From contig CANASP010000015.1 in NCBI GenBank assembly GCA_947364365.1, forward strand, positions 1-55,491: a DNA stretch of 55,491 bases. The letters run 5' to 3'. This document shows positions 14,256 through 30,247 of this stretch, in pieces (the stretch's first letter is position 1; each line of letters begins with the position of its first letter). The notes below the pieces were generated by a model that was not told the origin of the DNA, made no database searches, and saw only the letters and a list, made by a program, of their open reading frames with translations. This stretch comes from an uncultured Alistipes sp. (GTDB lineage: Bacteria; Bacteroidota; Bacteroidia; Bacteroidales; Rikenellaceae). Position numbers and translations under genes: made by a program.

Positions 14256-15296
14256 TCAGTCATTCAGTTGGATTTCCATATCGAGTTGGTAGGAGCGCGT
14301 CTCGCCGGGCTCGATGACCAGCGCGACCGGCTCCTGGCCGCCGCTGCCGTCGCACACCCAGGGGTGCGTGCCGGGATCCAGCCCCACGACGTATTCGTTC
14401 CGGCCGAAGTGCTGGCGATTGGTCAGCCACGGAAGCTGCCCCTTTTTGAACCGCATCCGCACGCCGAGCCCGAGCGCATCGTTGAACAGGCCGCATTCGC
14501 AGGTCGAGCGGCGGTCGGCGTCCACATCGATGAACGCCACCGACTCGCCGTCGCCACCGTGTTCGGCGATGGGCGGCAGGCAGCGGCGGAACCGAGGTTC
14601 GTTCGGTTCGTTGAAGATGAAGTCGTCGACACGCCCGCCGCGCGAGGTCCAACGCCCCCGCCAGACGATCCGCGTGCCTTCGTCGACGAGCGGATAGCCG
14701 AAATTGCAACGGTAGAGCAGCATGAGCGGCGCCCGTTTGTTGCCCAGATTGGTCACGCAGTCGCGGATCGTGATTTTCGGGGCGCCCAACGTCGCGCCGA
14801 CCGTGCGGCGGATCTCGAAATGGTGTCCCGACGCTGCGGTGTGCAGCATGCGGCCGCAAAGGCTCATGGCATACTCGCCCCGCTGCGGATCGGGCTGCCG
14901 GATCGACTCCAACACGGCCCGGAGCGTGCCGAAACGACCCGGGAGCGGGAACCCGGCACTGAAGGCCGCGGCATCGCGCGCCGTCCGGTCCGGTCCATAG
15001 CAGGTCGCGAGCAACCCTCCGCCCTGTCCGTGAAGCCAGCCGTCGGGCTGCGGAGCGGCCGCCACGCCGAGATGGCTGATCCACGCCAGTCCGAACTGGT
15101 TCATGAAGGCATCGGCGATATCCATGCCGCGGTCGACAACGACCTTGAACCGCAGGCCGCTGCCCGTGTTGAACCAGGCGATCCGCGTTCCTGCCCCGGG
15201 GCCGTCGCACAACTCCGACAGCTCGATCCCGCCGACCTGACACGGATTGGATATCTTATCCTCGTAGGAATCCAGCAAATAATCGTTCTTTGCCAT
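14256..15296 (-). CDS. DUF4432-family aldose-1-epimerase-like protein
   Basis: A 346-residue cytoplasmic protein (no signal peptide) of the galactose-mutarotase-like fold. It carries the family blocks CDGPGAGTRIAWFNTG, FKVVVDRGMDIADAF, GLLATCYGPD and YRCNFGYPLVDEG. Such proteins are thought to act on aldoses, possibly as mutarotases, after uptake; no activity is proven for this group to my knowledge. First gene of a two-gene leftward unit, divergent from araC across the shared operator at 15314-15363. A near-consensus -7 box (TATCTTTA, minus strand, 15317-15324) gives a very short leader. Confidence 0.8.
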   Translation of the reverse strand: MAKNDYLLDSYEDKISNPCQVGGIELSELCDGPGAGTRIAWFNTGSGLRFKVVVDRGMDIADAFMNQFGLAWISHLGVAAAPQPDGWLHGQGGGLLATCYGPDRTARDAAAFSAGFPLPGRFGTLRAVLESIRQPDPQRGEYAMSLCGRMLHTAASGHHFEIRRTVGATLGAPKITIRDCVTNLGNKRAPLMLLYRCNFGYPLVDEGTRIVWRGRWTSRGGRVDDFIFNEPNEPRFRRCLPPIAEHGGDGESVAFIDVDADRRSTCECGLFNDALGLGVRMRFKKGQLPWLTNRQHFGRNEYVVGLDPGTHPWVCDGSGGQEPVALVIEPGETRSYQLDMEIQLND

Positions 15297-15313
15297 AAGC
15301 AGCGATAAAAACC

Positions 15314-15363
15314 GGTTAAAGATAATACTATTTTAACACAAAATACTATATTTGCAATTAAAA
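15314..15363 (+). promoter_or_regulatory. PUL operator, copy A (araC/DUF4432 intergenic)
   Basis: TACTATTTTAA at 15326-15336 is followed after 21 bases by TTAAAA (15358-15363), the same layout as copies B and C. GGTTAA stands at 15314-15319, roughly where the other copies have TTAACC. The downstream half-site overlaps the expected araC transcription start, which would suit autoregulation. Confidence 0.6.
15347..15354 (+). promoter_or_regulatory. -7 element of the araC-type gene
   Basis: TATATTTG sits between the two half-sites of operator A, 21 bases before the ATG at 15376. No TTTG at -33. Confidence 0.5.
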
Positions 15364-15375
15364 ACCAAGCTTCGC

Positions 15376-16251
15376 ATGAAACCCAAGTACGAACAGGTTC
15401 CGCTGATAAAATCGCTCTACAACATCAAGAAAGAGTTCTTTTACAACGTCCACGTACCGTGGCACATCCATGTCGAGTACGAACTGGTGTTCATCCACAC
15501 GGACAACGGAATCAAACACGTCGGCAGCCATTTCGGGACCATCCACGGATCGGAGATTCTGCTGCTGGGTCCCAACCTGCCGCACAACTGGCTGATAAAC
15601 ATGCCCAACGCCGACATCGAGACCAACACGGACTACCAGGTGGTGATCCACTTCCCGAAAAGCGTGTTCGGTGCGGAGTTTTTCGACCTAGCGCCCTTCG
15701 CCGACATCAACAAGCTGCTGAAGCGGTCGGAACTCGGGCTCTGCTTCAAGGACGACGAAACGGCGGCGATCGGCAGGGAGATGGAGGCGATGCTCCGCAT
15801 GAAGGAGTTCGACCGGAGCATCGCGCTGCTGGAAATGCTCCAGAGACTCTCGGCCAAGGAGCACAGCGTCCTTTCGTCCTACGGGTTCAACAATGCGCTC
15901 AACGAAGAGAAGGTCAAACGGATGAACAAGGTGTTCAAATACGTCACCATCAACTACAAGGAGAACATCTCGCTGGAGGATATCGCCGGCATCGCCAACA
16001 TGACACCGCCGGCATTCTGCAAATATTTCAAGGAGCGGACCCACAAGACCTTCGTCGAGTTCGTCAACGAAGTGCGCATCGGGCATGCCTGCAAGATGCT
16101 CTTCGAGGACAACTACAACATCCTCCAGATCTGCTACGAATCGGGATTCAACAACCTGTCGAACTTCAACCGGCAATTCAAGAAGGTCATCAACATGTCG
16201 CCGGTCGAATACCGGAAAAAGATTCTGTCGGACTCCAAGGAGAAGCCGTGA
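15376..16251 (+). CDS. AraC-family transcriptional regulator of the PUL
   Basis: A 291-residue regulator. The N-terminal half is a cupin-like sensor (VPWHIHVEYELVFIHTDNG, then LGPNLPHNWL), expected to bind a small sugar in the cytoplasm. The C-terminal 100 residues hold two helix-turn-helix motifs: ISLEDIAGIANMTPPAFCKYFKE and NILQICYESGFNNLSNFNRQFK, ending in MSPVEYRKK, the usual AraC close. A TTG 24 bases upstream is in frame, but the ATG at 15376 is preferred. It stands alone between the two leftward arms of the PUL and is the obvious candidate to bind the repeated operator. Many Bacteroides PULs instead use HTCS or SusR; none is present here. Confidence 0.88.
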   Translation: MKPKYEQVPLIKSLYNIKKEFFYNVHVPWHIHVEYELVFIHTDNGIKHVGSHFGTIHGSEILLLGPNLPHNWLINMPNADIETNTDYQVVIHFPKSVFGAEFFDLAPFADINKLLKRSELGLCFKDDETAAIGREMEAMLRMKEFDRSIALLEMLQRLSAKEHSVLSSYGFNNALNEEKVKRMNKVFKYVTINYKENISLEDIAGIANMTPPAFCKYFKERTHKTFVEFVNEVRIGHACKMLFEDNYNILQICYESGFNNLSNFNRQFKKVINMSPVEYRKKILSDSKEKP

Positions 16252-16293
16252 TGTCGGAGCCCCTGCGGCCCCGACGATCATTCGGCTTGCCGG

Positions 16294-17424
16294 CTATCTC
16301 GATGCGCCGTCCTCCTTGCCCTGCTCCCATTCGGAGACCAGCTCGGCGGTCCGCGTCAGGTAGTAGTCGGGCGCAAGGGGCGAATAGTCGAGGTAGGTGA
16401 AGGCGTCGCACCGCATCGGCACGGCCGGTTCGATCTGCGTCCCCTCGTGCCACTCGTTGAACGACGTGATGCCGACGTAGGGCGCACCGCTGGCGACGGC
16501 CGCGGCGAACATGGCGTCGTAATACGTTCCGTTCCCGCGGTCGCGCGTCGTCGAGCCGTTCCACGGCCTTACGCGCGTGTCGACATAACCCGGTCCGACG
16601 CAGGGGATGAACACCTTGCCGTGCAGCTCGGCCCACGCCTGCATCTTCGGCCAGTTGGCGGGCGTCGAACCGTAGGTGAATCCCGTCGCGGCGAAGTAGG
16701 TGTAGAAGCCGTCGAGGCCCGATTCGATGAAATACTCCTCTTCGTGCTGCCCCACCCACAGGCCGATCATCACCGCGTCGAGCTCCGTGCCGCGGATCGT
16801 CAGATCGCCGTCCGGCTGCAACAGCCGCGCCCACTCCGAGGCCGGGGTGAGATAGGAGTCGTAGATGAAGAAGCTGGGGCGCCCCTCCATGCGGTAGAAC
16901 GCCGGGTGCGAGCCGTAGCGGTCGAGCAGCGCAGCGATCTTCCCGCGCAGGTTCTCGGGGTTACGCCCGCCGTAGGGCTCGATGTGGAAGCAGACCTTCA
17001 TGCCGTGCCGCGCCGCCTCGTCGAAGAGCACGGGCAGGGCCGGCGATCCGAAGTCGTTGTCGCCCCACCACGTCACCACCGCCACGCCGATACGCGCCTT
17101 GGCCATCATCTCGACATGCCGCGCGATGATCGCGGGATCGGTGCTGCTGTAGTTTCGCAGCTCGGGATAGAAGTTGGCCGCGAGGTTGTCGCCGCCGGGG
17201 ATGGGGTCGGCCGGGCCGTCGTAGCCCGCCTTGCCGATCACGCCGTGGGCCCAGTGCACCTCCTCGCCGTTGACCTCGGTGTTGCCGTACCAGTTGTAAT
17301 AGAAGCAGAAGACCCGCTCGTCGGGCCCACCGGCCGCTTCGGTCGCAGACGGGCCGCAGCCCGCGCATCCCAACAGCGCGGCGCAGCCGGCCAACGTCGC
17401 AAAAAGTTTGTTTTTCATTCTCAT
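16294..17424 (-). CDS. GH99 endo-alpha-mannosidase/mannanase, lipoprotein
   Basis: A 376-residue exported enzyme of family GH99, which cuts internal alpha-mannosyl linkages (alpha-1,2 in the known bacterial enzymes). The lipoprotein signal ends at one of the Cys of LLGCAGC. Diagnostic blocks are YYNWYGN at the first strand, VTWWGDND, FHIEPYGGR, and FNEWHEGTQIEP near the C-terminus, which holds the catalytic Glu pair of the family. A much longer frame runs upstream but lacks a signal; MRMKNKLF at 17424 starts the signal peptide. Last gene of the susC operon. With GH92 it is the strongest pointer to an alpha-mannan substrate. Confidence 0.92.
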   Translation of the reverse strand: MRMKNKLFATLAGCAALLGCAGCGPSATEAAGGPDERVFCFYYNWYGNTEVNGEEVHWAHGVIGKAGYDGPADPIPGGDNLAANFYPELRNYSSTDPAIIARHVEMMAKARIGVAVVTWWGDNDFGSPALPVLFDEAARHGMKVCFHIEPYGGRNPENLRGKIAALLDRYGSHPAFYRMEGRPSFFIYDSYLTPASEWARLLQPDGDLTIRGTELDAVMIGLWVGQHEEEYFIESGLDGFYTYFAATGFTYGSTPANWPKMQAWAELHGKVFIPCVGPGYVDTRVRPWNGSTTRDRGNGTYYDAMFAAAVASGAPYVGITSFNEWHEGTQIEPAVPMRCDAFTYLDYSPLAPDYYLTRTAELVSEWEQGKEDGASR

Positions 17425-17510
17425 TTTCCGTTTCGTAAGATAGGGCCCGAGCCGGGAAGCGGAGGCTGCGCCGCTCTCGGACGCATCCTCCCCTCCGGCC
17501 GGAAACCCGA

Positions 17511-19601
17511 TTATTTTTCCATGACGACGACCGCCGACTGCGGGCCGAGGGTCACCTCGCCCGTGAACTTCGCGGGCGCGGGCCGCTCGGGCGACACGGC
17601 GACCAGCTGGGCCGACGAGCCGTCGATCTTCACGCTGGCCGTATTCGCACGCTTGGTGTCGACGTTGTAGACCACGACGGCCTTTTTCCCGGTCTTCGTA
17701 TTTCGGAACACCGTATAGCGGATTCCCTCGCCGCTCACCGTGGCGCCCAGCGTGTCCATGAACTCGCCGTTCCACAGGAAGTCGGCATAGCGCCGGCGCA
17801 GGTCATCGACCTTGCGGCCGTAGGCCATCACGCGCGGGAATTCGCCCAGATGCCCCTTGAAGTTGCGCACCTCGTAGCTGATGGCATAGCGGTCGGCCAG
17901 ACACATGTTGACGTGGTTCAGGTCGTTGTGGTCGATCACGGCGCAGGCGATCGGAACCGTAGGATCGACGTAGCGCAACACCGGCTCGTGCCAGTAGTCG
18001 GCACGCGTGTAGGTGCCGTAATACTGCGACTGGAGGTCGTAGCACCCCTCGCCCACCATCAGGAAATCGGGATTCGACCGCTGGCACATCTCGTAGAACT
18101 CGCGGCCCAGCTTGTCGGCGCCCTGGTAGTTGAACCCGGGGACACGGTGCCCGTGGCTGGGATCGAAGCAGAGCATGGCACCCGCGTGGTGCTGGTTCTC
18201 GTCGTAGACCATACCGGCGGCACCCAGGTCGAGGCACTTCTGGAACTCGGCGTGGAGCATGCCGCGCAAGGTGTCGTCCATCATGCAGTGGATACTGAAG
18301 CGACGCGTGTTGACGCCGATCAGCTGCGTATAGGTGTTGTAGTTGTAGCCGGGATGCACGTAGGGGTCGAGCGCGGCGTTGATCGCACGGTGCGGCAGGT
18401 ACTTCTCGTGGCCATCGGCCGTCAGGTCGGCCCACGTGAACTTGGTGAAGAGCAGGATGTTCACACCCTTTTTCTGCGCATCGGCGATCGCCTCGCGCAA
18501 CTCCTTCTCCGTACCCAGACGGGGATCGACCGAGAAGTTGGGCACGCCGCGGTCCTGGCCGCCGTAGGCCCAGCCCGTCAGCTGAATGGCGTTGACGCCG
18601 TAGCGGCGGGCCTCGTCGACATATCTCTTCAGGTCCTTGAACCTGAAGTTGATGCGGCTCTCCGACGAGTTGATCTGCAACTGCTGCCACGTGTTGACCC
18701 GATCGAGCCAGGCGGCGCGGTGCGGCTCGACGAACCACGTCTTGCGCCAGGCCTTGTAGATGTCGGCCCCCTTGTGCCAGCTGCCCTCGTAGGGCGCCAT
18801 GATGAACGGGACGAGCGTGCGCTCCTCGCCGGGCTGAAGATAGAGCATGCGGGCCGCCTTGAGCTGCGTGCGCATCATGCGGCGCTCGCCGCGGTCGCGT
18901 TTCGAGGTCGCGGCACCCGCCTCGGCGGCATATCCCTCGACAGGAAGCGTCTCGTAGAGGCAGCGGATATATTCGTCGAGCTTGTGGTCCATACTCGACA
19001 GATAGAGGCCCTGCTTGGTATTATGAACCAGCGTGAAGGCGTGTTCGGGCAGGTTGCTCCACCCCGAGCCCGCCTCGCGCGGATAGAGCTCCTCGGTGTT
19101 GAACTTCGTGTAGGTGAAATACTGGAACAGCATGCGCTCCGTATCCTCGGGCACGGTCACCTCGCCCACGAAGGGCCACGCGAGCTGCTCGACGACCGCG
19201 TCCGATGCGTTGTCGAGGCTGCCGTCGTAGACCAGTCCGTCGTCGGTCAGGGCGATGCGTCCGCGGAAGTCGATGGCGAGCTGGTCCGAACCCACCTTGA
19301 GACCCTTCCACACGAACGTCAGACAGTCGTCCGAGAGCGTCACCTCGGGACGCGCCTGCGACGATTCGTTGACGACGAAGAAGCGCCCGTCTGCCAGCTT
19401 GACATTGGCCTCGAAGGCGCGGCCCACGGCTGCATCCGCCAACAGATTCCACCCCGTCAGCTTGCTCCGCAAGCCGACGAGGGCGCCGCTCTCAAGATCG
19501 ATCTCGGCCCGCAACGTGCCGTTTTCGAGCGTATAGAGCTGCCGGGCCTCGGCCATGGAGGCGCAAATCAGGCCGGAAAGTATCAAAAGTAATTTCTTCA
19601 T
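17511..19601 (-). CDS. DUF6259-like putative glycoside hydrolase (paralogue 1)
   Basis: A 696-residue secreted protein with a signal peptide cleaved near residue 19. The N-terminal 260 residues are a beta-sandwich opening with LENGTLRAEIDLESGALVGL. A TIM-barrel-like centre follows, with NAIQLTGWAYGGQDRGVPNF, AGMVYDENQHH and MVGEGCYD as acid-containing strand ends. The last 130 residues are a beta domain ending in QSAVVVMEK. It is a clear paralogue of the upstream neighbour (19615-21624): the opening and closing blocks match. I recall this layout as DUF6259, whose activity is not established to my knowledge. Part of the susC operon, 13 bases after its paralogue. Confidence 0.75.
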   Translation of the reverse strand: MKKLLLILSGLICASMAEARQLYTLENGTLRAEIDLESGALVGLRSKLTGWNLLADAAVGRAFEANVKLADGRFFVVNESSQARPEVTLSDDCLTFVWKGLKVGSDQLAIDFRGRIALTDDGLVYDGSLDNASDAVVEQLAWPFVGEVTVPEDTERMLFQYFTYTKFNTEELYPREAGSGWSNLPEHAFTLVHNTKQGLYLSSMDHKLDEYIRCLYETLPVEGYAAEAGAATSKRDRGERRMMRTQLKAARMLYLQPGEERTLVPFIMAPYEGSWHKGADIYKAWRKTWFVEPHRAAWLDRVNTWQQLQINSSESRINFRFKDLKRYVDEARRYGVNAIQLTGWAYGGQDRGVPNFSVDPRLGTEKELREAIADAQKKGVNILLFTKFTWADLTADGHEKYLPHRAINAALDPYVHPGYNYNTYTQLIGVNTRRFSIHCMMDDTLRGMLHAEFQKCLDLGAAGMVYDENQHHAGAMLCFDPSHGHRVPGFNYQGADKLGREFYEMCQRSNPDFLMVGEGCYDLQSQYYGTYTRADYWHEPVLRYVDPTVPIACAVIDHNDLNHVNMCLADRYAISYEVRNFKGHLGEFPRVMAYGRKVDDLRRRYADFLWNGEFMDTLGATVSGEGIRYTVFRNTKTGKKAVVVYNVDTKRANTASVKIDGSSAQLVAVSPERPAPAKFTGEVTLGPQSAVVVMEK

Positions 19602-19614
19602 GGTATATCGGGGT

Positions 19615-21624
19615 TTATTTTTCGAAAATCACGACAGCCGACTGCGGTGCGATCTCCACACTGCCGTCGAAGGGCTTCGGAGAGGGGTCCTCGGGGGTCG
19701 CATAGCGCATGGCGGCAGCGCCCGGCAGCGACACCTCGGCTTTCGACGACCGTTCGGTTCCCATGTTCACCACCACGACGGCCCGGGTTCCGTCCGCTCC
19801 CGCGAATACCGAATAGTCCAGATCGGAGCCGCTCACCTGCGCACCCCGGCGCTCGACGAACTCCGCCTTCCAGAGCTGCGCGGCATAGCGTTCGCGCAGC
19901 GCCTTGATCTGCCGTCCGTAGGCGGCGATGTGGGGATATTCGTCCAGGTGGCTGCCGTGGAAATTGAGGTCGTAGGCGATGTTGAAGCGGTTGAGCAGCG
20001 CCAGGTTCATGTCGCGGCGGGCCCGGCGCACCTCGACGCGCGCGATGATGGGCGTCGCGGGATTCATATAGCGGCGCTTGGCGTATTCGGCCTCCGAAGC
20101 GTCGAGCGCATAGCCGTCGTAGAACGCCAGCTGGCTGTCGAGGAAGCCGAATCCCAGGGCGACCTTGTCCGCCCCGCTCCGCAGCGCCTCGGCCATCTCG
20201 CGGTCGAGCTTCAGCACGCCGGCGGCCGTCGGTTCGCCCGCACGGTGTCCGTGGCTTTCGTCGAAGCAAAAGAACGATTTGTCGCGGTGGTCGGGATCGC
20301 GGTTGACATAGCCGTCGGCCGCACGCAAGGCCGGCAGCGCCAGCCACTCCTGCCGCACGATCCGCTGAAACTCGGGAGCCAGCGGGCAGAGCAGCGAACG
20401 GTTATAGGCCCAACCGAAGGGATCGTTCATCACGAAACGCTCGTATTTGGCGGCATATGCCTTCTTGTGGGTATCGGTCTCGTACCACCGGGTCTCCAGA
20501 ACGACCCGCACGCCGAGCTCGCGGCAGGCGGCGATCGCCTCGTCGAGTCCGGCGACCTGCCCGACCCCTTCGTCGGTCGCGCGGTACCAGCCGCGCACCT
20601 GCAAGACGTCGACGCCCTGACGGGCCGCCTCGCGCGCATAACGCACCAGGTCGTCGCCGCTGCCGATACCGACCTTCCACCACGTCAGCGGCTCGCGCAG
20701 CCATGCGGCGGCCGGTGCGGATGCGGCCTCGCGGCGCTCCTTCTTATAGATGTCCACACCTGCGGTCCACGGACCGGCGTAGGGGGCCAGCCGGACCGGA
20801 TCGAGCATCGTCCGTTCGCCGGGCTTGTTGAAAACGACCTGGTTCGCCTTGAACTGGATACGCACCATTTCGCCGTCGATCTCGTCGGCATAGGGGTTGA
20901 CCCCGCGCTCCTCGAACCCGGGGATCAGCTCGAACGAAGTGATGACCATATGGCGCGGCGCGGCGTCGCGTGTGTAGACCATGAAGCCCTGGTCGCGGTT
21001 GCGGACCTGCAAATAGGCGCGCTCGGGCAGTTCGTAGGTCGAGGTGGGATAGTCCACGCCCCAGTAGCCGTGCTGGTTGAAAAAGTGCGGAAAGAGTTCG
21101 CGCTGGTCGTTGCGCGTCGAGTGGTGCAGCGGCTGCGTCTTGTCGGGCACTGACACCTCGCCCAGACAGGGCCAGGAGACATACTCGACCGGGTAGGGGC
21201 TGCCGTTGATCACTTCGCCGCCGTATTCGAGACCCGAATCGGTCAGGCGGACCTCGCCGCGGAACGTGACGTCGACCGGCTCGGCCAGGTGGGACGACCT
21301 AAGGCGGCTCCACGTGAAGACGATCCGATCGTCGGTGCGCTCGATCGTGGGATCCTGCTGCTCCGTGCCCTTCACGACATTGAACCGGCAATCCTGCTCG
21401 GTCATCTCCTTGCCTTCGAGCGGCAGGAGCAGTTCGAACGATTGTCCCAGCACGGCGCGGTCCATGATCTTCCAGCCCGAAGCCTTGTCGACCAGACCGA
21501 CCAGCGCACCGCTCTTCGCATCGAACGTCGCTGCGATCCGATCGTTCTCCAGCGAGATCGTCCCCTTCGCCGCGAAAAGCGACGGACACGATAGGATCAT
21601 CCAGATGTAAAGAAGTTTTTTCAT
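19615..21624 (-). CDS. DUF6259-like putative glycoside hydrolase (paralogue 2)
   Basis: A 669-residue secreted protein, signal peptide to about residue 18 (PSLFAA). It shares architecture with the next gene: LENDRIAATFDAKSGALVGLV at the start, a DIYKKERREA linker, a barrel with VLQVRGWYRATDEGVG, FFCFDESHGHRAG and LGFGFLDSQ, then YGRQIKALRERYAAQLWKAEF and a closing QSAVVIFEK. Divergence between the two copies is large, so they probably attack different linkages. Acid residues in DESHGH are candidates for catalysis, by analogy with DENQHH in the paralogue. Fourth gene of the susC operon. Confidence 0.75.
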   Translation of the reverse strand: MKKLLYIWMILSCPSLFAAKGTISLENDRIAATFDAKSGALVGLVDKASGWKIMDRAVLGQSFELLLPLEGKEMTEQDCRFNVVKGTEQQDPTIERTDDRIVFTWSRLRSSHLAEPVDVTFRGEVRLTDSGLEYGGEVINGSPYPVEYVSWPCLGEVSVPDKTQPLHHSTRNDQRELFPHFFNQHGYWGVDYPTSTYELPERAYLQVRNRDQGFMVYTRDAAPRHMVITSFELIPGFEERGVNPYADEIDGEMVRIQFKANQVVFNKPGERTMLDPVRLAPYAGPWTAGVDIYKKERREAASAPAAAWLREPLTWWKVGIGSGDDLVRYAREAARQGVDVLQVRGWYRATDEGVGQVAGLDEAIAACRELGVRVVLETRWYETDTHKKAYAAKYERFVMNDPFGWAYNRSLLCPLAPEFQRIVRQEWLALPALRAADGYVNRDPDHRDKSFFCFDESHGHRAGEPTAAGVLKLDREMAEALRSGADKVALGFGFLDSQLAFYDGYALDASEAEYAKRRYMNPATPIIARVEVRRARRDMNLALLNRFNIAYDLNFHGSHLDEYPHIAAYGRQIKALRERYAAQLWKAEFVERRGAQVSGSDLDYSVFAGADGTRAVVVVNMGTERSSKAEVSLPGAAAMRYATPEDPSPKPFDGSVEIAPQSAVVIFEK

Positions 21625-21680
21625 AGAAATTAGGGATTAGAAAAGAGGGAGGAGCCGCCTCGTGGCTCCTCCCGAAAAAA

Positions 21681-22373
21681 TCAGATGGTCAGCCGTACCG
21701 CGGGGGCGTAGTTGTGCTTGGCGTTGGCCACGTCGACCACGGCGCCGACACGGAAGTAATAGGCCTGCCCCGACTTGAACTGGGACCGGCTCATCCGCAG
21801 CGTGAAGACACGCCCCGTATCCTTGAACGATTCGTTGACGTTCTGCGTCGTGCGGGCTTGCGCAAAGCTGTCGCCGACCACGTAGTCGATATGGCCGAAC
21901 AGGGCGACGGAACGCACGGCGCTCTCTACGGTGGGGGTCACGGTGAAGGTCGCCACGATGTCGTCCGCCTCCTTGCGGATCGCCACGTCGGAGATGCGGA
22001 TATAGGGCTGCACCTCGAAATCGAGCCGGTTCTCGCCGCGCTTGACCTCATAGCCCTCCAGACGGTCGGGAATGACGAAATTGCTCTCCTCGAAATAGAT
22101 GTCGTACCGGGCTGCGAACATCAGGTCGTTGCGGTACTCGCCGTTGACCCGGAAGATCATCTGCTGCCGGTCGGGATTCTCGAAGCCGAGCTCCTCGTAC
22201 ATGATCTTGGTGCCGTTGATGTCCTGCTGGACCAGTTCCCCGGTCCGGATGTCGCGCACCTCGCCGTAGATTCGGGCGTTCGGCCCGTCGTAGTTGTCCA
22301 GCTCGCACGCGGTGAGCGACAGGGAGAGGATCGCCGCGGCGGCGACATATCTAAATTCAAACACGTTTTTCAT
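21681..22373 (-). CDS. DUF3823-family surface glycan-binding lipoprotein
   Basis: A 230-residue lipoprotein (SLSLTAC lipobox near residue 23) in the position that SusE/SusF-type proteins take behind susD. It begins ELDNYDGPNARIYGEVRD, the usual entry of DUF3823, which then folds as two beta-sandwich domains. Expected to sit on the outer face and help bind the glycan; it is not an enzyme. It follows susD by 15 bases. Confidence 0.85.
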   Translation of the reverse strand: MKNVFEFRYVAAAAILSLSLTACELDNYDGPNARIYGEVRDIRTGELVQQDINGTKIMYEELGFENPDRQQMIFRVNGEYRNDLMFAARYDIYFEESNFVIPDRLEGYEVKRGENRLDFEVQPYIRISDVAIRKEADDIVATFTVTPTVESAVRSVALFGHIDYVVGDSFAQARTTQNVNESFKDTGRVFTLRMSRSQFKSGQAYYFRVGAVVDVANAKHNYAPAVRLTI

Positions 22374-22388
22374 ACTCTGCGAAGATCG

Positions 22389-24299
22389 TTAGTAGTTGGG
22401 GTTATTGACCAGTCCGTTGCTGGAGATACCCGGAATGGGTCGGTAATAGGCTTTCGGTTCGAACTTGTGCTGCGCGTTGCCGGGCTCGACCTCGGCCCGC
22501 ACGAAGATGTACTTCTTCTCGCCGCTCGTGAAGTCGAGCATGGGCACCAGACCGCGGCGGCGGAAGCTGCCGTCGAAGATGGTGTGGAACTCGCGCAGGC
22601 GGAAATAGTCCCAGATCGAGTTGTACTCCAGCGCGAACTCGGAACGGCGCTCGCGGCGGACGTTCTCCGACGTCAGGTCGAGGTCGTCGAGGAAGCCGGC
22701 GCGGCGGTGCACCTTGTTGAGCGCCTCGCGCGCGGTCATCACGCCCTGGGCGTCGGGCAGCGCGCTCTCGGCCACGGCCTCGGCGTAGTTCATCAGCACC
22801 TCGGCGTAGCGCAGGTCGACGAACGGCGTGGTCACCTGGTCCCACACCTGGTCGCCCTGACCCTTGAGGTACTTCTTCAGCAGGAAGCCCGAGCGGGTGC
22901 CGTTGGCGCGGTTGTCGACCCAGCCCGAATAGCGGCCCTCGTCGGAATCGCCCTTGCCGTAGTAGGTCACCCCGTCGAACGTGTAGCTGTCGTTGGCCTG
23001 CCATACGACCGATCCGTCGGCACGGCGCAGACCGCCCTGGATCAGGATCGTCTGACCGCCCCACTGCGTGCCGGGAAGGATCACCGACGCATAGAGACGC
23101 GGATCGCGGTCGGCGAAAATCTCGGCCATGTCGTCGTAGCGCCTGTAGGCGACGCCCGCGTCGAACGCGTTGGTGCCGTAGTCCTCGTTTCCGTCGACGG
23201 TCGTCGCCAGCTTCACGTCGTAGGTGCCCTTGCGCGTCACCGGATCGATGACGGCATACGACTCGACCAGGTCGAGCGTCGGGCAGCACCGGCCGCCGTA
23301 CTCTACGGACAGCTGGTTCGGCTCGTGCCATTTGCCCATGTTGTGGGCGATGCCGGGATAGACATAGTCGCGCAGGAACATCACCTCCGAGATCCCCTTG
23401 CCCTCCACGAAGAGCTTGCGGTAATTCTCGGCGGCCTCCTCCGGCGACGAGGGGTTCTCGCCGTAGAGTGCGAAGCGGCCGCTGCGGATCACCTCGGCCG
23501 AAGCGTCGATACACTCCCGGTAGAAGAACTCGATGTCGGCGTCGGTGAAACCGCCCACGAGCTTCTGCGTCACGGCATCGCCGGTGAGCATCGCCCCCTC
23601 GCGGTTCCAGAACTTGCCGACCGACGCGGCGTAGAGCGCCGCGCGCGACTTGAGCGCATAGGCCGTCCAGCGGTTGGCGCGCTCCTGCGTGGTGGCATCG
23701 GGAAGGCTCGCGGCAGCCTTGTCGCACAGGTCGAGAATGAAGCGCCACGTGTCGACCTCCGTGCTGCGCGGCACCTTGACGGCCTCGTAGTCGCCGTTAT
23801 ACTGCTGCACCTCGGTGATCAGCGGCACGCCACCGTAGCGGCGGGCCAACGCGAAATAGGTGTAGGCCATCATGAAATAGTACTCGCCCATCACCCGATC
23901 GATGGTCGCGGGGTTCGAAGGCTTCATCAGCGGGATGTTCTCCTTGAGCTCGTTGTAGCCGCGGACATACTTGTAGAGCGCCTCCCAGTTGCCGTAGCGG
24001 TCGGTCTGGCTGGCGACGTCGCCCCACTCGCTGTGGACGGCCTCGGGACCCGACATCATGTTGGTCTTGCCGCCGTCGCAGCGACCGACGTTGTAGCCGC
24101 CGCCGGTGAAGTCGAACCGGAAATCCTCGATGGGCAGGTTATAGTAATGGCTGGCCATGTAGGCGTTGATGCCTCCGTCGCTCGACAGCAGCGCGTCGCC
24201 CGTTACACGGTCTTTGGGTTCTACCTCCAGAAAGTCGGCGCAGGAGACCGCTCCGAAAATCGCGGCGAGACCCAGTATCGAATATTTGAAGTTTTTCAT
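22389..24299 (-). CDS. SusD/RagB-family surface glycan-binding protein
   Basis: A 636-residue lipoprotein with lipobox GAVSC near residue 20. It shows the usual SusD start CADFLEVEPKDRVTGD, TPR-like helices (NRWTAYALKSRAALYAAS) and the C-terminal SusD block LRYAEVLMNYAEAVAE with REALNKVHRRAG and RRSEFALEYNSIWDYFRLR. It forms the lid on the SusC porter and captures the oligosaccharide. Starts 12 bases after susC ends. Confidence 0.95.
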   Translation of the reverse strand: MKNFKYSILGLAAIFGAVSCADFLEVEPKDRVTGDALLSSDGGINAYMASHYYNLPIEDFRFDFTGGGYNVGRCDGGKTNMMSGPEAVHSEWGDVASQTDRYGNWEALYKYVRGYNELKENIPLMKPSNPATIDRVMGEYYFMMAYTYFALARRYGGVPLITEVQQYNGDYEAVKVPRSTEVDTWRFILDLCDKAAASLPDATTQERANRWTAYALKSRAALYAASVGKFWNREGAMLTGDAVTQKLVGGFTDADIEFFYRECIDASAEVIRSGRFALYGENPSSPEEAAENYRKLFVEGKGISEVMFLRDYVYPGIAHNMGKWHEPNQLSVEYGGRCCPTLDLVESYAVIDPVTRKGTYDVKLATTVDGNEDYGTNAFDAGVAYRRYDDMAEIFADRDPRLYASVILPGTQWGGQTILIQGGLRRADGSVVWQANDSYTFDGVTYYGKGDSDEGRYSGWVDNRANGTRSGFLLKKYLKGQGDQVWDQVTTPFVDLRYAEVLMNYAEAVAESALPDAQGVMTAREALNKVHRRAGFLDDLDLTSENVRRERRSEFALEYNSIWDYFRLREFHTIFDGSFRRRGLVPMLDFTSGEKKYIFVRAEVEPGNAQHKFEPKAYYRPIPGISSNGLVNNPNY

Positions 24300-24311
24300 G
24301 TGCGGGAATCT

Positions 24312-27300
24312 TTAGAAGGTGAGATTGACACCCAGGTTATAGGATTTCTGCAAGGGGTACTGGAATCCGTTGCCGTCGGAGATTTCGGGGTCGAACTCCT
24401 TGAGGTACTTGTTGCAGATGACAAGCGGGTTGGTCAGGTTGATGTAGCAACGCAGTTTGGAGATGCCCGAACCGCGCAGCAGACGGGCGGGCAGCGTATA
24501 GCCCAGTTCGACGTTCTTCAGACGGGCGTGGGCCGCATTGACGCGCTGAATGTTGCTCACCAGACGGTTGGCTCCGTTGTCGGCGTCGGTGCGCCGCGTC
24601 GCGGGGTACTTGCCGGGGATCCACTCGCTGTTGGGATCGTAGACGTCGGCCAGGTGCCAGCGGTCGTAGTAGAACGCCGGCGAGTTGGACGAGTCGAGCG
24701 CCAGCACGTTGCCCAGCACCTCGCTGTACATGGCCGTATATTTCGCCGCGCCCGACCAGAGCATGTTGAAGTCGAGCCCCTTCCAGCTGGCGTAGAGCGT
24801 GATGCCGAACGTCATCTTGGGCTGGCCGTTCCAGAACATCGGCTTCATGTCCTTGTCGTTGATCACGCCGTCGCCGTTGAGATCGAGGTGCATGTAATCG
24901 CCCGGCAGCGTCTTCGAGTTGCCGTATCCGCCCGTCTCGATCACGCCGTTGCGGATCTGGTCGTAGTTCTCGTAGCGGCCGATCACCTCGTAGCCCCATC
25001 CGATATCGTGGTAGCGATCGATGTTCCCGTTCCTCCAGCGGTCCCAGCTGCTGCGATAGGGCGAGCGCTCCTGGTAGGTGGTCTTCGAGCGGCTGAAGTT
25101 CATGTTGGCCGTGACGCCGTAGTGGAACTCGCCCACCGTATTGCGGTGGCCGATCATCAGTTCGAAACCTTCGGTGCGGTCCGAGTTGAGATTCTCCTGC
25201 GGCATGGAGGCGCCGAACGTATTGGGCAGCGCCCCCAGACGGGTGCCGAGCAGCCCATCGCGGTCGCGACGGTAGATGTCGAACGAGAAGTCCAGCAGAC
25301 CGTCCCACATCGTCAGGTCCATACCGAAGTCGGTCGTCTCCGTGGAGACCCACGTCAGGTTGGCGTTCATCAGCCCCGAGCTGACATAGCCGCTGGTATA
25401 CGTGCCGCCTCCGAGCACATAGCCGCCACCGCCGACATAACCGGGAACATACTGGAACGGATTGCCGACATCCTCGCCCGAACGGCCCCACGACGCGCGG
25501 ATCTTCAGGTTGCTCAGGAAGGCGACGTTATCCTTGAGGAACGGCTCCTCGGAGATGCGCCAAGCCGCCGACACGACGGGGAAAAAGCCCCAGCGCCGGT
25601 CGGGCGCATAGCGATACGAGCCGTCCTCGCGGAATGCGAATTCGACCATGTACTTGCTCTTGAAGTCGTAGTTGAAACGTCCCACGACCGAGACGAAGGT
25701 CTGTTCGCTGGTGTTTCCGCCGGTCTGCTGTCCGGTGACGGGCGCACGGTCGATGTTGTCGGTCGTGAACAGGTCGTTGTCGTAGAAACGCTTGGCGCTC
25801 AGGTAGCGGCCCGTTTCGCGACGGGTTTCGAACACGGCCACGGCGCTCACGTTGTGAGCGTCGGCGAAGGTGCGCTTGTAATTGATCGACCCCTGGAAAT
25901 TGAGACGCGACGAATCCCAATCTTCCTCCTGGATGCTGGGATCGTAGTTGGCCGAAGAGGCATAGGAGTCGTCGAGCGACGAGTAGGTGTAGGTCATCAC
26001 GCGCTTCTGGACGCGGGTGCGGATCGTGTTCTTCGAGTCGTAGGCCACCTGCGCCTTGAGCGAAAGGCCCTCGACGCCGGGCATGTCGAACGTCGCGCTC
26101 AACGACGACTGGAAGAACTTGTCGCGCCACTCGCCGTAGCCGAACAGATCGCGGTCGGAGAAGGCCACCGGGTTATCGTTGATCGGACGGGGCCGGTTGT
26201 AGTAGAGCGGATTGTTGTTGGCGAACACGGTCTCCGAAGGGATGATGCCGTGCACGGCCTTGTTGAGATAGAAGAATGCGTCGTCCCACGTACCGGGCTG
26301 CTTGCGCAGGTCGGTATATCCCGAGAGGTTCAGGTCGAAACGCAGGTATTTGTTCACCTTGAGCTTGTTGCCGCTGCGGAACGAATATTTGTCGTAGCCG
26401 ATGTCGCCCGAGCGCAACATGCCGTTGTCGGTCATGTAGCCGACGCTCGTATAGGTCGATACGCGGTCCGTACCGCCTTCGAGGACGATGTTGTACTGGT
26501 GCTGGAAGGCCGCCTTCTTGAAGACCTCGTTGTACCAGTCGACGTTCGGGAGGGACTGGTAGGCCTGCAACTCCTCGCGCGTGGCGAAATAGGGCGAGCC
26601 GCCCGAATAGACTCCGTCCTCGTTACGGATCTCCCAGTACTGATAGGCATTCATCATCCGGGTGTGCTGCGTGGGCTGGGAGAATCCCCAGTTGGCGTTG
26701 AGCGACACGTGCAGCGGGCCCTGCGAGCCGGCTTTGGTCGTCACCAGGATGGCGCCGTTGCTCGAATTGATACCGTAGATCGCCGCCGAGGCGTCCTTGA
26801 GCACCGTGATGCTCTCGATATCTTCGGGGTTGAGTTTCTGGAATTCGGTCGTCTCGTTGCGCACCACGCCGTCGATGACGATCATCGGCGTTCCCAGACC
26901 GCGCACGTTGATATTGGTGGAGAAGCTGCCCGGCATACCGTTGGTCTGACGGATGCGCAGTCCCGGAACCTTGCCGGCCAGTGCGACGGCCAGCGACGGG
27001 GCCTTGGTCGTGAGAATATCCTTGTTGGAAATACTCGACACGGCACCCGAGAGGGTCGCCTTCTTCTGCGTGCCGTAACCCACGACCACGACTTCGTCCA
27101 GCGCCGAGGCCGACGAAGCGAGCACCACATGCAGGTCCGCGCCGACAGGGCGCTCTACGGGCTCCATGCCCAGGAACGAGAATACGAGTGTCCGGGCCGA
27201 CTCCGGCACCTCGAACGAGAACCGGCCCTCCGAATCGGTCGTCGCGCCTACCGCGGTGCCCTTCACCAGCACGTTGCAGCCGACGATCGGCACGTCGCTC

Positions 27301-27460
27301 TCATCTACGACCCGTCCCGAAACGATCTGGCGAGGGGGGGGGAATTTTGGCCCCGTTGCGCCACCGCGCCCAGCGGCAACAGCAACGATACCGCGAACAC
27401 CAATAGCCAGCTTCGCAGACCGATCCGACGAAGCCGCGTCAAGTTGAAATTGTTCTTCAT
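24312..27460 (-). CDS. SusC/RagA TonB-dependent outer-membrane porter, out of frame at a C9 tract
   Basis: The intact protein would have about 1049 residues. The ATG at 27460 starts a good signal peptide (MKNNFNLTRLRRIGLRSW, then a hydrophobic core, cleavage near LGAVAQ). The frame then enters nine C (27334-27342) and, as written, stops at TAG 27305-27307 after 51 codons. One extra C would join it to the rest: QIVSGRVVDESDVPIVGCNV opens the carboxypeptidase-like domain, then the plug (VVVGYGTQKKATLSGAVSSI) and the 22-strand barrel ending in YNLGVNLTF. So either the gene is phase-variable and OFF here, or the tract length is misread. It heads a six-gene operon. Promoter and operator lie at 27621-27716. 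Confidence 0.9.
27334..27342 (-). repeat. C9 homopolymer inside susC
   Basis: Nine G on the plus strand, nine C on the coding strand, between the signal peptide and the first mature domain. With C9 the frame is broken; C10 or C7 would restore it. Confidence 0.9.
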
Positions 27461-27620
27461 AAGGTTGATTGAATTAGGTTTGTGGTTTGTAGTGGACTTT
27501 TCGCCGGCTTCCGCCCGGCTGTCGGGACCCCGGTCCCGTTCATAACGTTTTTATGCCATTCGCGCCTGTTTAATTAGTAAAAATGTTCCGCGAACCCGTT
27601 CGCTTTCGAATTCGTTATCG

Positions 27621-27628
27621 CAAAAGTA
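27621..27628 (-). promoter_or_regulatory. -7 element of the susC operon
   Basis: TACTTTTG on the minus strand, identical to the -7 box of the divergent GH92 gene. No TTG at -33, as expected for an activator-dependent promoter. The leader to the ATG at 27460 would be about 155 bases. Confidence 0.5.
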
Positions 27629-27659
27629 GACAGAACCCCGTGGCGGAGATATGCGTTAA

Positions 27660-27716
27660 TTAACCAATCATAATACTATTTTAACGTTAGAGCTGTTTTC
27701 ATATCTTAAAATAGTA
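27660..27716 (+). promoter_or_regulatory. PUL operator, copy B (susC/GH92 intergenic)
   Basis: The most complete copy: TTAACCAA (27660-27667), 6 bases, TACTATTTTAA (27674-27684), 21 bases, then the exact inverse TTAAAATAGTA (27706-27716). The inner edge is 19 bases from the GH92 -7 box, where a -33 box would normally be. Inverted half-sites centred 32 bp (three helix turns) apart fit a dimeric activator. Confidence 0.7.
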
Positions 27717-27735
27717 GCTCAAGGCAGAAAATGTA

Positions 27736-27743
27736 TACTTTTG
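27736..27743 (+). promoter_or_regulatory. -7 element of the GH92 gene
   Basis: TACTTTTG, 37 bases before the ATG at 27781, with no -33 TTTG upstream. Confidence 0.55.
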
Positions 27744-27780
27744 CAGTGTGTCACGAACCGTCGTAAGACCAATTTGAACC

Positions 27781-30045
27781 ATGATAAACACCAAACGCAT
27801 GAAAAAAATCAGCCATTTGCTCATCGCCCTCGTCTGGGGCGCAGCACTGACAGCCTGCGGAGGCGCCGCCCCCCTCGACGGACCGGCCGCCTACGTCGAC
27901 CCCTACATCGGTTCGGGCGGCCACGGCCACGTCTTCGTGGGGGCCTCCGTCCCCTTCGGCGCCATCCAGGCCGGACCGCAGAACATCCACAAGGGATGGG
28001 ACTGGTGCTCGGGATACCACCATTCGGACAGCATCGTCATCGGGTTCGCCCACACCCACCTGAGCGGTACGGGATGCACCGACCTGGGCGACATCCAGAT
28101 CATGCCCTACACGGGCGAGCTGCGGTCGAAACGCGGCAGCCAGGAAAACATCGAGGGAAGCTGCTCGTCCTACTACAGCCACGACAACGAAACCGTCGCA
28201 CCGGGCTACTACGCGCTCAGGATGGACAACGGCGTGGGGATCGAGATGACGGCCTCGACCCGCACGGCGCTGCACCGCATCACCTACCCCGAGGCTGCGG
28301 ACCACCGGCTGCTGATCAACCTCGAGGAGGGCAACGGCGACGGAGCCTACGACACCTATTTCAAACAGATCGACGCGCACACGGTCGAGGGCTACCGCTT
28401 CTCGCAGGGCTGGGGACCCCACAAGGTCTTCTTCGTGCTCACCGCAGACAAGCCGATCCGTTCGGTGGCGCTTTTCGACGCCGACACCCCCGTCGAGGGG
28501 AGCGAGATCCGGTGCCGGGGCGCCAAGAGCGTGCTGACCTTCGGCGACGAGAAGCAGGTTCAGGTCAAGGTGGCCATCTCGTCGGTGAGCTGCGCCAACG
28601 CGCTCGAAAACCTCCGGGCCGAGATTCCCGACTGGAATTTCAGGACGGTGCGGACCGAGGCCCTCCGCCGCTGGAACGAGGAGCTCGACGTCATCGAGAT
28701 AGAGACTGCCGACGAAGCCGCAAAAAAGATCTTCTACACGGCGCTCTACCACGCCTTCATCGCCCCGACGACCTACTGCGACGTCAACGGCGAGTTCCGC
28801 GGCCACGACGACCGGATCGTCCGGGGCGAAAGCTGGACCAACTACTCGACCTTCTCGCTGTGGGACACCTACCGGGCGCTGCACCCGCTCTACACGCTCA
28901 TCCGCCGGGAGCGGCTCCCCGACCTCATCAACTCGATGCTCTCGATCTACGACCAGCAGGCCAAACTTCCGATCTGGGCCCTCCCGGGTGCCGAGACCAA
29001 CACCATGCCGGGTTACAGCGCCGTGCCGGTCATCTCCGACGCCATCCTCAAGGGGATCGGAGGCTTCGACGTCGACCGCGCCTACCGTGCGATGAAGGCC
29101 TCGACGACCTACCCCAAGCAGGACGCCGTGCCCTACGTGCTGGAAAAGGGATTCATCCCCGACGACAAGGTCGCCAACGCCACCTCGATCGCCATGGAAT
29201 ACGCCGTAGGCGACTGGGGCGTGGCGCAGGTGGCCAAAAAACTCGGGCGCAAGGCCGACTACGAGGAGTACCTCAAGCGCGGGAAATACTACGCGCACTA
29301 TTTCGACCCGTCGATCCACTTCATCCGTCCGAAGCTCGAAAACGGCGAGTGGCTCGCCCCCTACGACCCCTTCCAGTCGATCCACGGCGTGGGCCACTTC
29401 TGCGAGGGCAACGGCTGGCAGTACACCTTCTTCGTGCCGCAGCACCCCGAAGGGCTGATCGAGCTGATGGGCGGCGACGCCCCCTTCACGGCCAAGCTCG
29501 ACGAGTTCTTCACCGCCGAAGGCGACATGGGCGCCGAGGCGTCGATGGATATCTCGGGTCTGATCGGCATGTATGCCCATGGCAACGAACCGAGCCATCA
29601 CATCGTCTACCTCTATCCCTATGCGGGCCAGCAGTGGAAGACGGCCGAGAAGGTGCGCTACATCCAGCGGGAGTTCTACACCGACCGGCCCGACGGCATC
29701 ATCGGCAACGAGGACTGCGGCCAGATGTCGGCCTGGCATATCCTCTCGGCCCTGGGATTCTACCAGGTCAACCCGTCGAACGGCATCTTCGTCTTCGGCA
29801 GCCCGCTCTTCGACCGGGCGACGCTCCGTCTGCCCGAGGGCAAGCGGTTCGAAATCCGGGCCGAGAACGACCCGGCGACGAACATCTACATCCAGTCGGT
29901 CGAGCTCAACGGCAAGCCCTACGACAAGGCCTATATCACCTACGACGATATCATGGCCGGCGGCACGCTGACCTTCGTCATGGGTCCCCGGCCGAACGAG
30001 GAGTTCGGCGCGGCGCCCGAAAGCCGGCCGCACACGGCCATCTGA
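27781..30045 (+). CDS. GH92 exo-alpha-mannosidase, lipoprotein
   Basis: A 754-residue exported Ca2+-dependent alpha-mannosidase. The signal ends at the lipobox LTACGG (near residue 26). GH92 signatures are all visible: YVDPYIGSGGHGHVFVGASV at the start of the N-terminal beta-sandwich, FAHTHLSGTGC, ESWTNYSTFSLWDTYRALHP, FCEGNGWQYTFF, AHGNEPSHH and the NEDCGQMSAW loop whose Glu and Asp take part in catalysis and metal binding. Linkage preference (1,2 / 1,3 / 1,4 / 1,6) cannot be read reliably. An ATG at 27799 is an alternative start with a neater signal peptide. Divergent from susC across operator B; ends in a strong terminator, so it is a separate unit. Confidence 0.95.
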   Translation: MINTKRMKKISHLLIALVWGAALTACGGAAPLDGPAAYVDPYIGSGGHGHVFVGASVPFGAIQAGPQNIHKGWDWCSGYHHSDSIVIGFAHTHLSGTGCTDLGDIQIMPYTGELRSKRGSQENIEGSCSSYYSHDNETVAPGYYALRMDNGVGIEMTASTRTALHRITYPEAADHRLLINLEEGNGDGAYDTYFKQIDAHTVEGYRFSQGWGPHKVFFVLTADKPIRSVALFDADTPVEGSEIRCRGAKSVLTFGDEKQVQVKVAISSVSCANALENLRAEIPDWNFRTVRTEALRRWNEELDVIEIETADEAAKKIFYTALYHAFIAPTTYCDVNGEFRGHDDRIVRGESWTNYSTFSLWDTYRALHPLYTLIRRERLPDLINSMLSIYDQQAKLPIWALPGAETNTMPGYSAVPVISDAILKGIGGFDVDRAYRAMKASTTYPKQDAVPYVLEKGFIPDDKVANATSIAMEYAVGDWGVAQVAKKLGRKADYEEYLKRGKYYAHYFDPSIHFIRPKLENGEWLAPYDPFQSIHGVGHFCEGNGWQYTFFVPQHPEGLIELMGGDAPFTAKLDEFFTAEGDMGAEASMDISGLIGMYAHGNEPSHHIVYLYPYAGQQWKTAEKVRYIQREFYTDRPDGIIGNEDCGQMSAWHILSALGFYQVNPSNGIFVFGSPLFDRATLRLPEGKRFEIRAENDPATNIYIQSVELNGKPYDKAYITYDDIMAGGTLTFVMGPRPNEEFGAAPESRPHTAI

Positions 30046-30071
30046 TCCCCGGCGAGTCGTCCGGATCCACG

Positions 30072-30115
30072 GCGGAGCCGTCTACCCCTTGCGGGCAGAC
30101 GGCTCCGCTTGCGTT
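30072..30115 (+). terminator. Terminator after GH92
   Basis: A 12-bp perfect stem (GCGGAGCCGTCT with AGACGGCTCCGC) with a 13-base loop, followed by TTGCGTT. Confidence 0.75.
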
Positions 30116-30161
30116 CGCGACCGTCCGGATGCGGCGGCCGCGTCGCCGCGATGCGCATCGA

Positions 30162-30218
30162 TTAACCAAAGGTTGTACTATTTTAATCCAGGATACTTTT
30201 TCCATTCTTAATATTTAT
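30162..30218 (+). promoter_or_regulatory. PUL operator, copy C (before the two-gene hydrolase unit)
   Basis: TTAACCAA (30162-30169), 6 bases, TACTATTTTAA (30176-30186), 21 bases, then a degenerate inverse half beginning TTAATAT (30208). Spacing matches copy B exactly and the -7 box follows after about 21 bases. Confidence 0.6.
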
Positions 30219-30239: not shown

Positions 30240-30247
30240 TAAATTTG
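30240..30247 (+). promoter_or_regulatory. -7 element of the 30327 unit
   Basis: TAAATTTG, with no -33 TTTG but with operator C upstream. Confidence 0.5.

Follow-up and report, generated by a model that had tools for sequence, protein, structure and literature searches.

Three putative AraC operators at a mannan-type locus of gut Alistipes, and a recurrent promoter spacing

Which protein controls the mannan-type locus of a gut Alistipes, and from which sites would it act? We addressed this question in a window of 55,491 nucleotides (contig CANASP010000015.1 of an uncultured Alistipes sp., assembly GCA_947364365.1), taken from a draft metagenome-assembled genome (MAG) of 2.15 Mb in 38 contigs that is 87% complete. 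The locus is a polysaccharide utilization locus (PUL), with adjacent susC and susD genes and the glycosidases GH99 and GH92, families whose established roles make alpha-mannan or a high-mannose glycan the probable substrate. It encodes an AraC-family protein of 291 aa, in which HTH_18 (residues 204-281) scores 75.7 bits against a cut-off of 33.6, as expected of an AraC-type double helix-turn-helix; N-terminal to residue 204 no Pfam match was found, and the protein has only HTH domains, with no sensor, histidine kinase or receiver domain that would mark a hybrid two-component system (HTCS) protein. A single-sequence fold of this protein (mean pLDDT 35.4) was unusable and was left out of the reasoning. 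Three copies of a short putative operator, sites A, B and C, occur in the locus (Table 1), and comparison among genomes indicates that they are very probably the operators of this stand-alone regulator.

An earlier reading of the window without database searches, hereafter the original prediction, had placed an 11-mer, TACTATTTTAA, at these three sites, each copy followed after 21 bases by TTAA and copies B and C preceded at 6 bases by TTAACCAA; all of these positions were confirmed, and site B in addition holds an inverse copy of the 11-mer. Four matches at up to one mismatch were found in the window against 0.03 expected, a count reached in none of 100 shuffles. The exact 11-mer is confined to this locus in the draft genome, and the genome-wide scan for 11-mer-N21-TTAA returned four matches, every one in the locus, which supports the idea of a locus-specific operator set; among 101 genus genomes searched, the 100 besides the window's own gave one match (G052), the sister species not being part of that sample. 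The bare 11-mer was ruled out as a regulon marker, as it is present in 96 of 180 genus genomes, in scattered copies among the matches listed.

The sister species is represented by the Alistipes MAG AH.B8_2 (loci L031/L032), also a draft, which appears among the genomes as both G101 and G154, with matches sharing contigs and coordinates. Its AraC protein, in two contig-end pieces, is 81-90% identical to that of the window (94% in the HTH part), and its only three exact 11-mers lie before araC, GH92 and the orthologue of the gene at 30327, so that the expected persistence of the motif in related strains is borne out in this species. Ungapped identity at sites A, B and C is 45/58, 46/58 and 42/58 for the operators, compared with 11/44, 24/44 and 16/44 for the upstream flanks and 10/48, 19/48 and 17/48 downstream, the downstream value of site A being lowered by a length difference that shifts the coding part. 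The sister also keeps the inner elements CTTAAAATA (site B) and CTTAATATTT (site C).

The pattern 11-mer-N21-TTAA, originally proposed as the core, is replaced here by a 21-bp tandem of the 11-mer and a half-site 21 bp to its left, with TTAAYCA at -14. At up to three mismatches, the corresponding 25-mer, TTAAYCA-N7-TACTATTTTAA, occurs in the window's own genome at sites B and C only. Beyond the species pair, a match to the AraC protein at E <= 1e-38 was found in 71 of 393 Bacteroidales genomes, while matches above 40% identity in 180 genus genomes (E <= 1e-40) are limited to the window, the sister and G045 (48%); the best relative on plasmids (934 records) is 35.8% identical. From each of 65 homologues at most 300 bases ahead of the match were collected; with the two sister pieces excluded, 63 regions remained, a few of them shorter, and the match does not in every case begin at the start codon. 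At up to two mismatches the strict 25-mer was found in two of these regions, belonging to G194 (42% identity) and G527 (39%), whereas shuffles averaged 0.01 and none of 100 reached two; at up to three mismatches the count is again two (shuffle mean 0.28, reached by 3 of 100). When the spacer was varied from 0 to 15 at up to two mismatches, spacer 7 gave two regions, spacer 4 gave one and the rest none. G194 carries a second, weaker copy (three mismatches) before a glycosidase operon encoding a six-hairpin protein, DUF6259 and GH65, and in G527 (L118 9362-9441) two complete operators face each other, each with an outward -7 box and one directed towards araC. A relaxed composite pattern, which allowed W at two places after the G194 and G527 sites had been seen, gave seven matches in six of the 393 genomes, two of them in the window, one at the G194 araC, one at the G527 araC, and three others (G227, G571 and G440) with no AraC relative in the surrounding stretch examined. 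The reversed control also gave seven, and it is thus the place of the matches, not their number, that counts.

The spacing between this tandem and the promoter -7 box links these lineages further. Read towards the promoter, the predicted core is TTAAAATAGTA-N10-(second half-site)-N24-TAnnTTTG, with the -7 box on the strand opposite to the written 11-mer; site B has the full form, TTAAAATAGTA-N10-TTAATTAACGC-N24-TACTTTTG, followed by susC, and the -33 zone of this promoter holds no TTTG. When all TAnnTTTG words around ten sites were listed, an opposite-strand -7 box was found to start at -46 (once -45) in seven of them, namely those of susC in both species, the sister RbsD/FucU operon, the G194 transporter, the G194 glycosidase operon and both G527 genes. 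In a set of eight sites (B and C from one species, A from both), six fit -46/-45, and 3000 shuffles of the flanks never yielded more than two at any pair of strand and offset. Across nine promoters from four lineages, with one promoter counted in both species, the spacer is 24 in eight and 23 in one, and a weaker site in G265 (36-38%) also has its -7 box at -45; the isolated near-matches in L113 and L090, which have no -7 box at this distance, were rejected. A genome search with the spacing rule (-7 box, gap of 24-45, 11-mer plus C; 393 genomes) gave, in four genomes, a match on the contig of an AraC homologue and no more than 12 kb from it: the window, G194, G527 and, newly, G460 (35% homologue). 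G460 has two operators, TTAATAAAGTA-N10-TTAATATAGTA-N24-TATATTTG between araC and susC/susD, and TGTAAATAGTA-N10-TTAAAATAGTA-N24-TATTTTTG about 7 kb off, before GH26-GH130-MFS. The composite site thus keeps to the AraC lineage (homologues of 42%, 39% and 35% identity) as its neighbouring genes change, and this recurrence gives good support to the original choice of the AraC protein as likely regulator.

A related geometry was observed at more distant AraC paralogues of the genus. Their 33 upstream regions (47,237 bases, with G045 and the sister excluded) contain the 11-mer three times exactly and six times at up to one mismatch, and in six of six cases a TACTAT-like repeat (at least 4/6 letters) lies 21 bases on. 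Of 1000 permuted motifs, the exact count was reached by one, that at up to one mismatch by 24 and that with the repeat by one; the six sites form two apparent orthologue groups (two each in G056 and G092, one each in G012 and G060) and are not six independent cases. All six have a -7 box at -25/-26, with the 11-mer as the proximal half. Relative to the 11-mer, the second half-site is found at -21 for sites of the window type and at +21 for those of the paralogue type, so that the distance from the proximal half-site to the -7 box is 25 in both. In G164 and G165, further 11-mers that lie some 7 kb away from AraC paralogues were dropped, since inspection by eye showed no second half-site.

Several observations weigh against the assignment of these sites to the AraC protein, or against its generality. 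The strict site is absent from 61 of the 63 homologue upstream regions, and G045, a member of the same genus with an AraC protein 48% identical, has no site before araC (best match with eight mismatches). The two half-sites of the tandem have little in common beyond TTAA. The spacing rule is unmet by window sites A and C and by sister site C, and half-sites in tandem with a period of about 21 bp beside target promoters are found at site B and its relatives, not at window site A. Finally, the spacing search returned 63 rows in 55 of the 393 genomes against about 100 matches of the reversed control, and without an excess the spacing pattern alone is no marker. Within some 1.5 kb of 30 of these rows, tblastn detected no AraC relative (E <= 1e-4); this subset included the second G460 operator, about 6 kb from araC. 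The remaining rows were only compared by eye with the list of AraC homologues.

Table 1. Operator elements, promoter boxes and genes of the locus in window coordinates.
Feature	Position	Strand	Remark
DUF4432 gene	14256..15296	-	in sister not adjoining araC; control via site A unsupported
Site A 11-mer TACTATTTTAA, beside araC promoter	15326..15336	+	CCGGTTA where TTAAYCA expected, so no left half-site
araC -7 box TATATTTG	15347..15354	+	21 nt from 11-mer start in both species
Site A inner TTAA (TTAAAA at 15358)	15358..15361	+	downstream of araC -7 box
AraC-family regulator, 291 aa	15376..16251	+	HTH_18 above cut-off
GH99, final gene of susC-side series	16294..17775	-	start tentative
DUF6259 protein	17511..19601	-	frame overlaps GH99 frame
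DUF3823 protein	21681..22373	-	
susD	22389..24299	-	
susC	24312..27460	-	start ATG 27460; frame shifts at nine-C run 27334-27342
susC -7 box TACTTTTG	27621..27628	-	24 nt from proximal half-site
Site B proximal half-site for susC, TTAATTAACGC leftward	27653..27663	-	21 bp from distal; overlaps TTAACCA box 27660-27666 (+)
Site B distal half-site for susC, TTAAAATAGTA leftward	27674..27684	-	TACTATTTTAA on + strand
Site B inner element TTAAAATAGTA, exact inverse of 11-mer	27706..27716	.	core CTTAAAATA kept in sister
GH92 -7 box TACTTTTG	27736..27743	+	62 nt from 11-mer start in both species
GH92	27781..30045	+	
Site C left box TTAACCA	30162..30168	.	
Site C 11-mer TACTATTTTAA	30176..30186	.	on + strand as at A and B
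Site C inner element TTAATATTT (TTAATAT at 30208)	30208..30216	.	kept in sister
30327-unit -7 box TAAATTTG	30240..30247	+	64 nt from 11-mer start; 63 in sister
30327 gene	30327..32048	+	without Pfam match; orthologue identity 86% in sister, 64% in G045

We propose that two AraC monomers would bind at a distance of 21 bp, one to TTAAAATAGTA and the other to a weaker half-site keeping mainly TTAA, and that with the proximal half-site 24 nt upstream of a TAnnTTTG box lacking a -33 TTTG, the bound activator would replace the -33 contact. Site B would drive susC and, with it, the series from susD to GH99, and the shared operators may allow co-regulation of the PUL by its local regulator. In this proposal AraC binding and activation rest on comparison, and operon structure and ligand are likewise predictions from sequence. 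The original prediction had assigned the sites to five units. Of these, susC fits the rule, and GH92 and the 30327 unit are probably activated rightward from the same sites by a geometry other than the 24-nt rule, their -7 boxes having no TTTG 14-28 nt ahead, as had been predicted. Copy B is indeed flanked by both susC and GH92, but its best-fixed relation is to the opposite-strand -7 box, so that susC would be its first target and GH92 its second. Site C consists of tandem half-sites without a leftward -7 box at the rule spacing and may serve as an operator of 30327.

Window site A has neither a left half-site nor a leftward -7 box and retains the 11-mer, which overlies the -33 zone of the araC promoter itself, a position that suggests autoregulation. 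The sister has at this site the full tandem and a leftward -7 box before a divergent operon (L064 416-3385, C62) that encodes RbsD/FucU, a sugar porter and an L-ribulose-5-phosphate 3-epimerase, the last above cut-off, and ends at the contig edge with a fragment of an FGGY kinase; in place of this operon the window has DUF4432 next to araC. Since the left half of the tandem and its leftward -7 box are present or missing together, site A seems to have two roles, and control of DUF4432, another of the five units, is disfavoured. The pentose-type genes of the sister also leave the identity of the effector uncertain. An 18-nt direct repeat in site A, TACTATATTTG, was considered as a further element and rejected, since the araC -7 box lies inside it and sister site C does not preserve it.

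The inner TTAA element, 30-32 nt from the GH92 and 30327 -7 boxes, gives rise to an alternative that we regard as unlikely but worth weighing, in which an AraC dimer would bind a palindrome of TACTATTTTAA and an inverse half-site 32 bp on and drive GH92 and 30327 rightward. TTAA lies at +32 in six of six Alistipes sites, with a mean match to the inverse 11-mer of 7.67/11 that none of 300 shuffles reached, and window site B holds the exact inverse. However, the sister copy of that inverse element matches only 9/11, both G194 sites and G527_1 carry TTAA at +30, not +32, and in the seven-site set from the window, G194 and G527 a direct reading at +25 scores slightly better than the inverse one (6.57 versus 6.0). 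The inverse element, moreover, lies 19-21 nt from the GH92 and 30327 -7 boxes, not 24. The inner TTAA is conserved in the sister and may equally be an inverse or a direct half-site.

Improbable, in our judgement, is binding of the sites by a regulator encoded elsewhere, such as an HTCS protein. The AraC-type domains of HTCS proteins also use direct repeats of about 21 bp, as in the alpha-mannan loci of Bacteroides thetaiotaomicron described in the available part of one report (PMC3878776), and the window's own genome has long frames of 1354 and 1456 aa with putative AraC-type ends elsewhere; nevertheless, a scan of it for the 25-mer at up to three mismatches found sites B and C only, and in G194, G527 and G460 the site again accompanies this AraC lineage, with different target genes. 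That the AT-rich words adjoining the -7 boxes, bound by no specific protein, assist promoter opening, act as UP-like elements or are relics of segment duplication is hardly credible, given the differing flanks of copies A, B and C, the -7 box spacing fixed across lineages and the scatter of 11-mers, among the matches listed, in other genus genomes.

Some features of the neighbouring genes were recorded alongside. The susC start at ATG 27460, with a clear signal peptide, is in a frame different from that of the remaining susC (27334-27460, minus strand), and the break at the nine-C run may reflect an assembly error or phase variation. The genes at 17511-19601 and 19615-21624 are paralogue-like neighbours, each matching the other's sister orthologue at 33-35%, and a Pfam match (DUF6259) was found in the former only. 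In the sister, an extra GH92 gene (31% identical) lies between araC and GH99 (L031 705-2927) and an Aldolase_II gene between GH92 and site C (L063 2881-3573), which in the window directly follows GH92. In G045 (L038), the 30327 orthologue (64%) and the 48% AraC orthologue lie at most 17 kb apart, and GH2, MFS and phage-type integrase (168-1376) genes are found alongside. Genes behind operators of this kind include GH26 in G056 (L083 4616-5731) and GH26-GH130 in G460 (L158 3801-6325), a beta-mannan theme in this branch of AraC proteins.

On a broader view, TTAAAATAGTA-N10-half-site-N24-TAnnTTTG could represent a fixed promoter grammar shared throughout one branch of the stand-alone AraC activators of Bacteroidales, with the activator in place of the -33 element and the branch often serving mannan-type loci (GH92/GH99, GH26/GH130), so that the rule would predict regulons when applied next to AraC genes; we consider this generalization tentative, with slightly less than an even chance of holding. 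The analysis offers a concrete operator and promoter layout for an Alistipes mannan locus, together with a candidate spacing rule for AraC-controlled Bacteroidales promoters without a -33 element that may help to predict switched-on genes.

The layout resembles that of Escherichia coli AraC at araI1-I2, where tandem half-sites lie 21 bp apart and the proximal one adjoins the -35 region of a sigma-70 promoter. The tandem arrangement is the same in the Alistipes locus; the promoter type differs, and only the HTH domain is common to the two proteins. Closer to Alistipes, direct repeats with a period of about 21 bp have been reported, in the available parts of the papers, for HTCS regulators, including alpha-mannan ones (PMC3878776), and for stand-alone AraC regulators of Bacteroides rhamnose genes (PMC3870299), and the kind of system is thus already known. 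The motif, spacing rule and regulon described here were not found in the accessible portions of the open-licence literature, including PMC11253607, PMC10766802, PMC9860051 and PMC12125979, of which PMC9860051 mentions an AraC-type factor in a marine beta-mannan locus; a text search of open-licence papers for the 11-mer gave, by title and listing, no Bacteroidota work among its matches. RhaR of Bacteroides is, like the AraC protein of the window, a one-component AraC-type regulator, but as far as the accessible text describes it, it serves rhamnose genes through unique motifs of its own, and no -7 box spacing was seen there (PMC3870299). The HTCS proteins BT2628, BT3302 and BT3786, according to the available part of their description, share with this locus an AraC-type DNA-binding domain, mannosidases and SusC/SusD, and their sites, two 16-bp elements with a 5-bp spacer, have the same 21-bp period, whereas they are fused to a membrane sensor kinase and the protein of 291 aa found here has only its HTH part recognised (PMC3878776). 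This comparison suggests an alpha-mannosidase locus under a one-component AraC regulator in Alistipes, where B. thetaiotaomicron uses hybrid two-component proteins.

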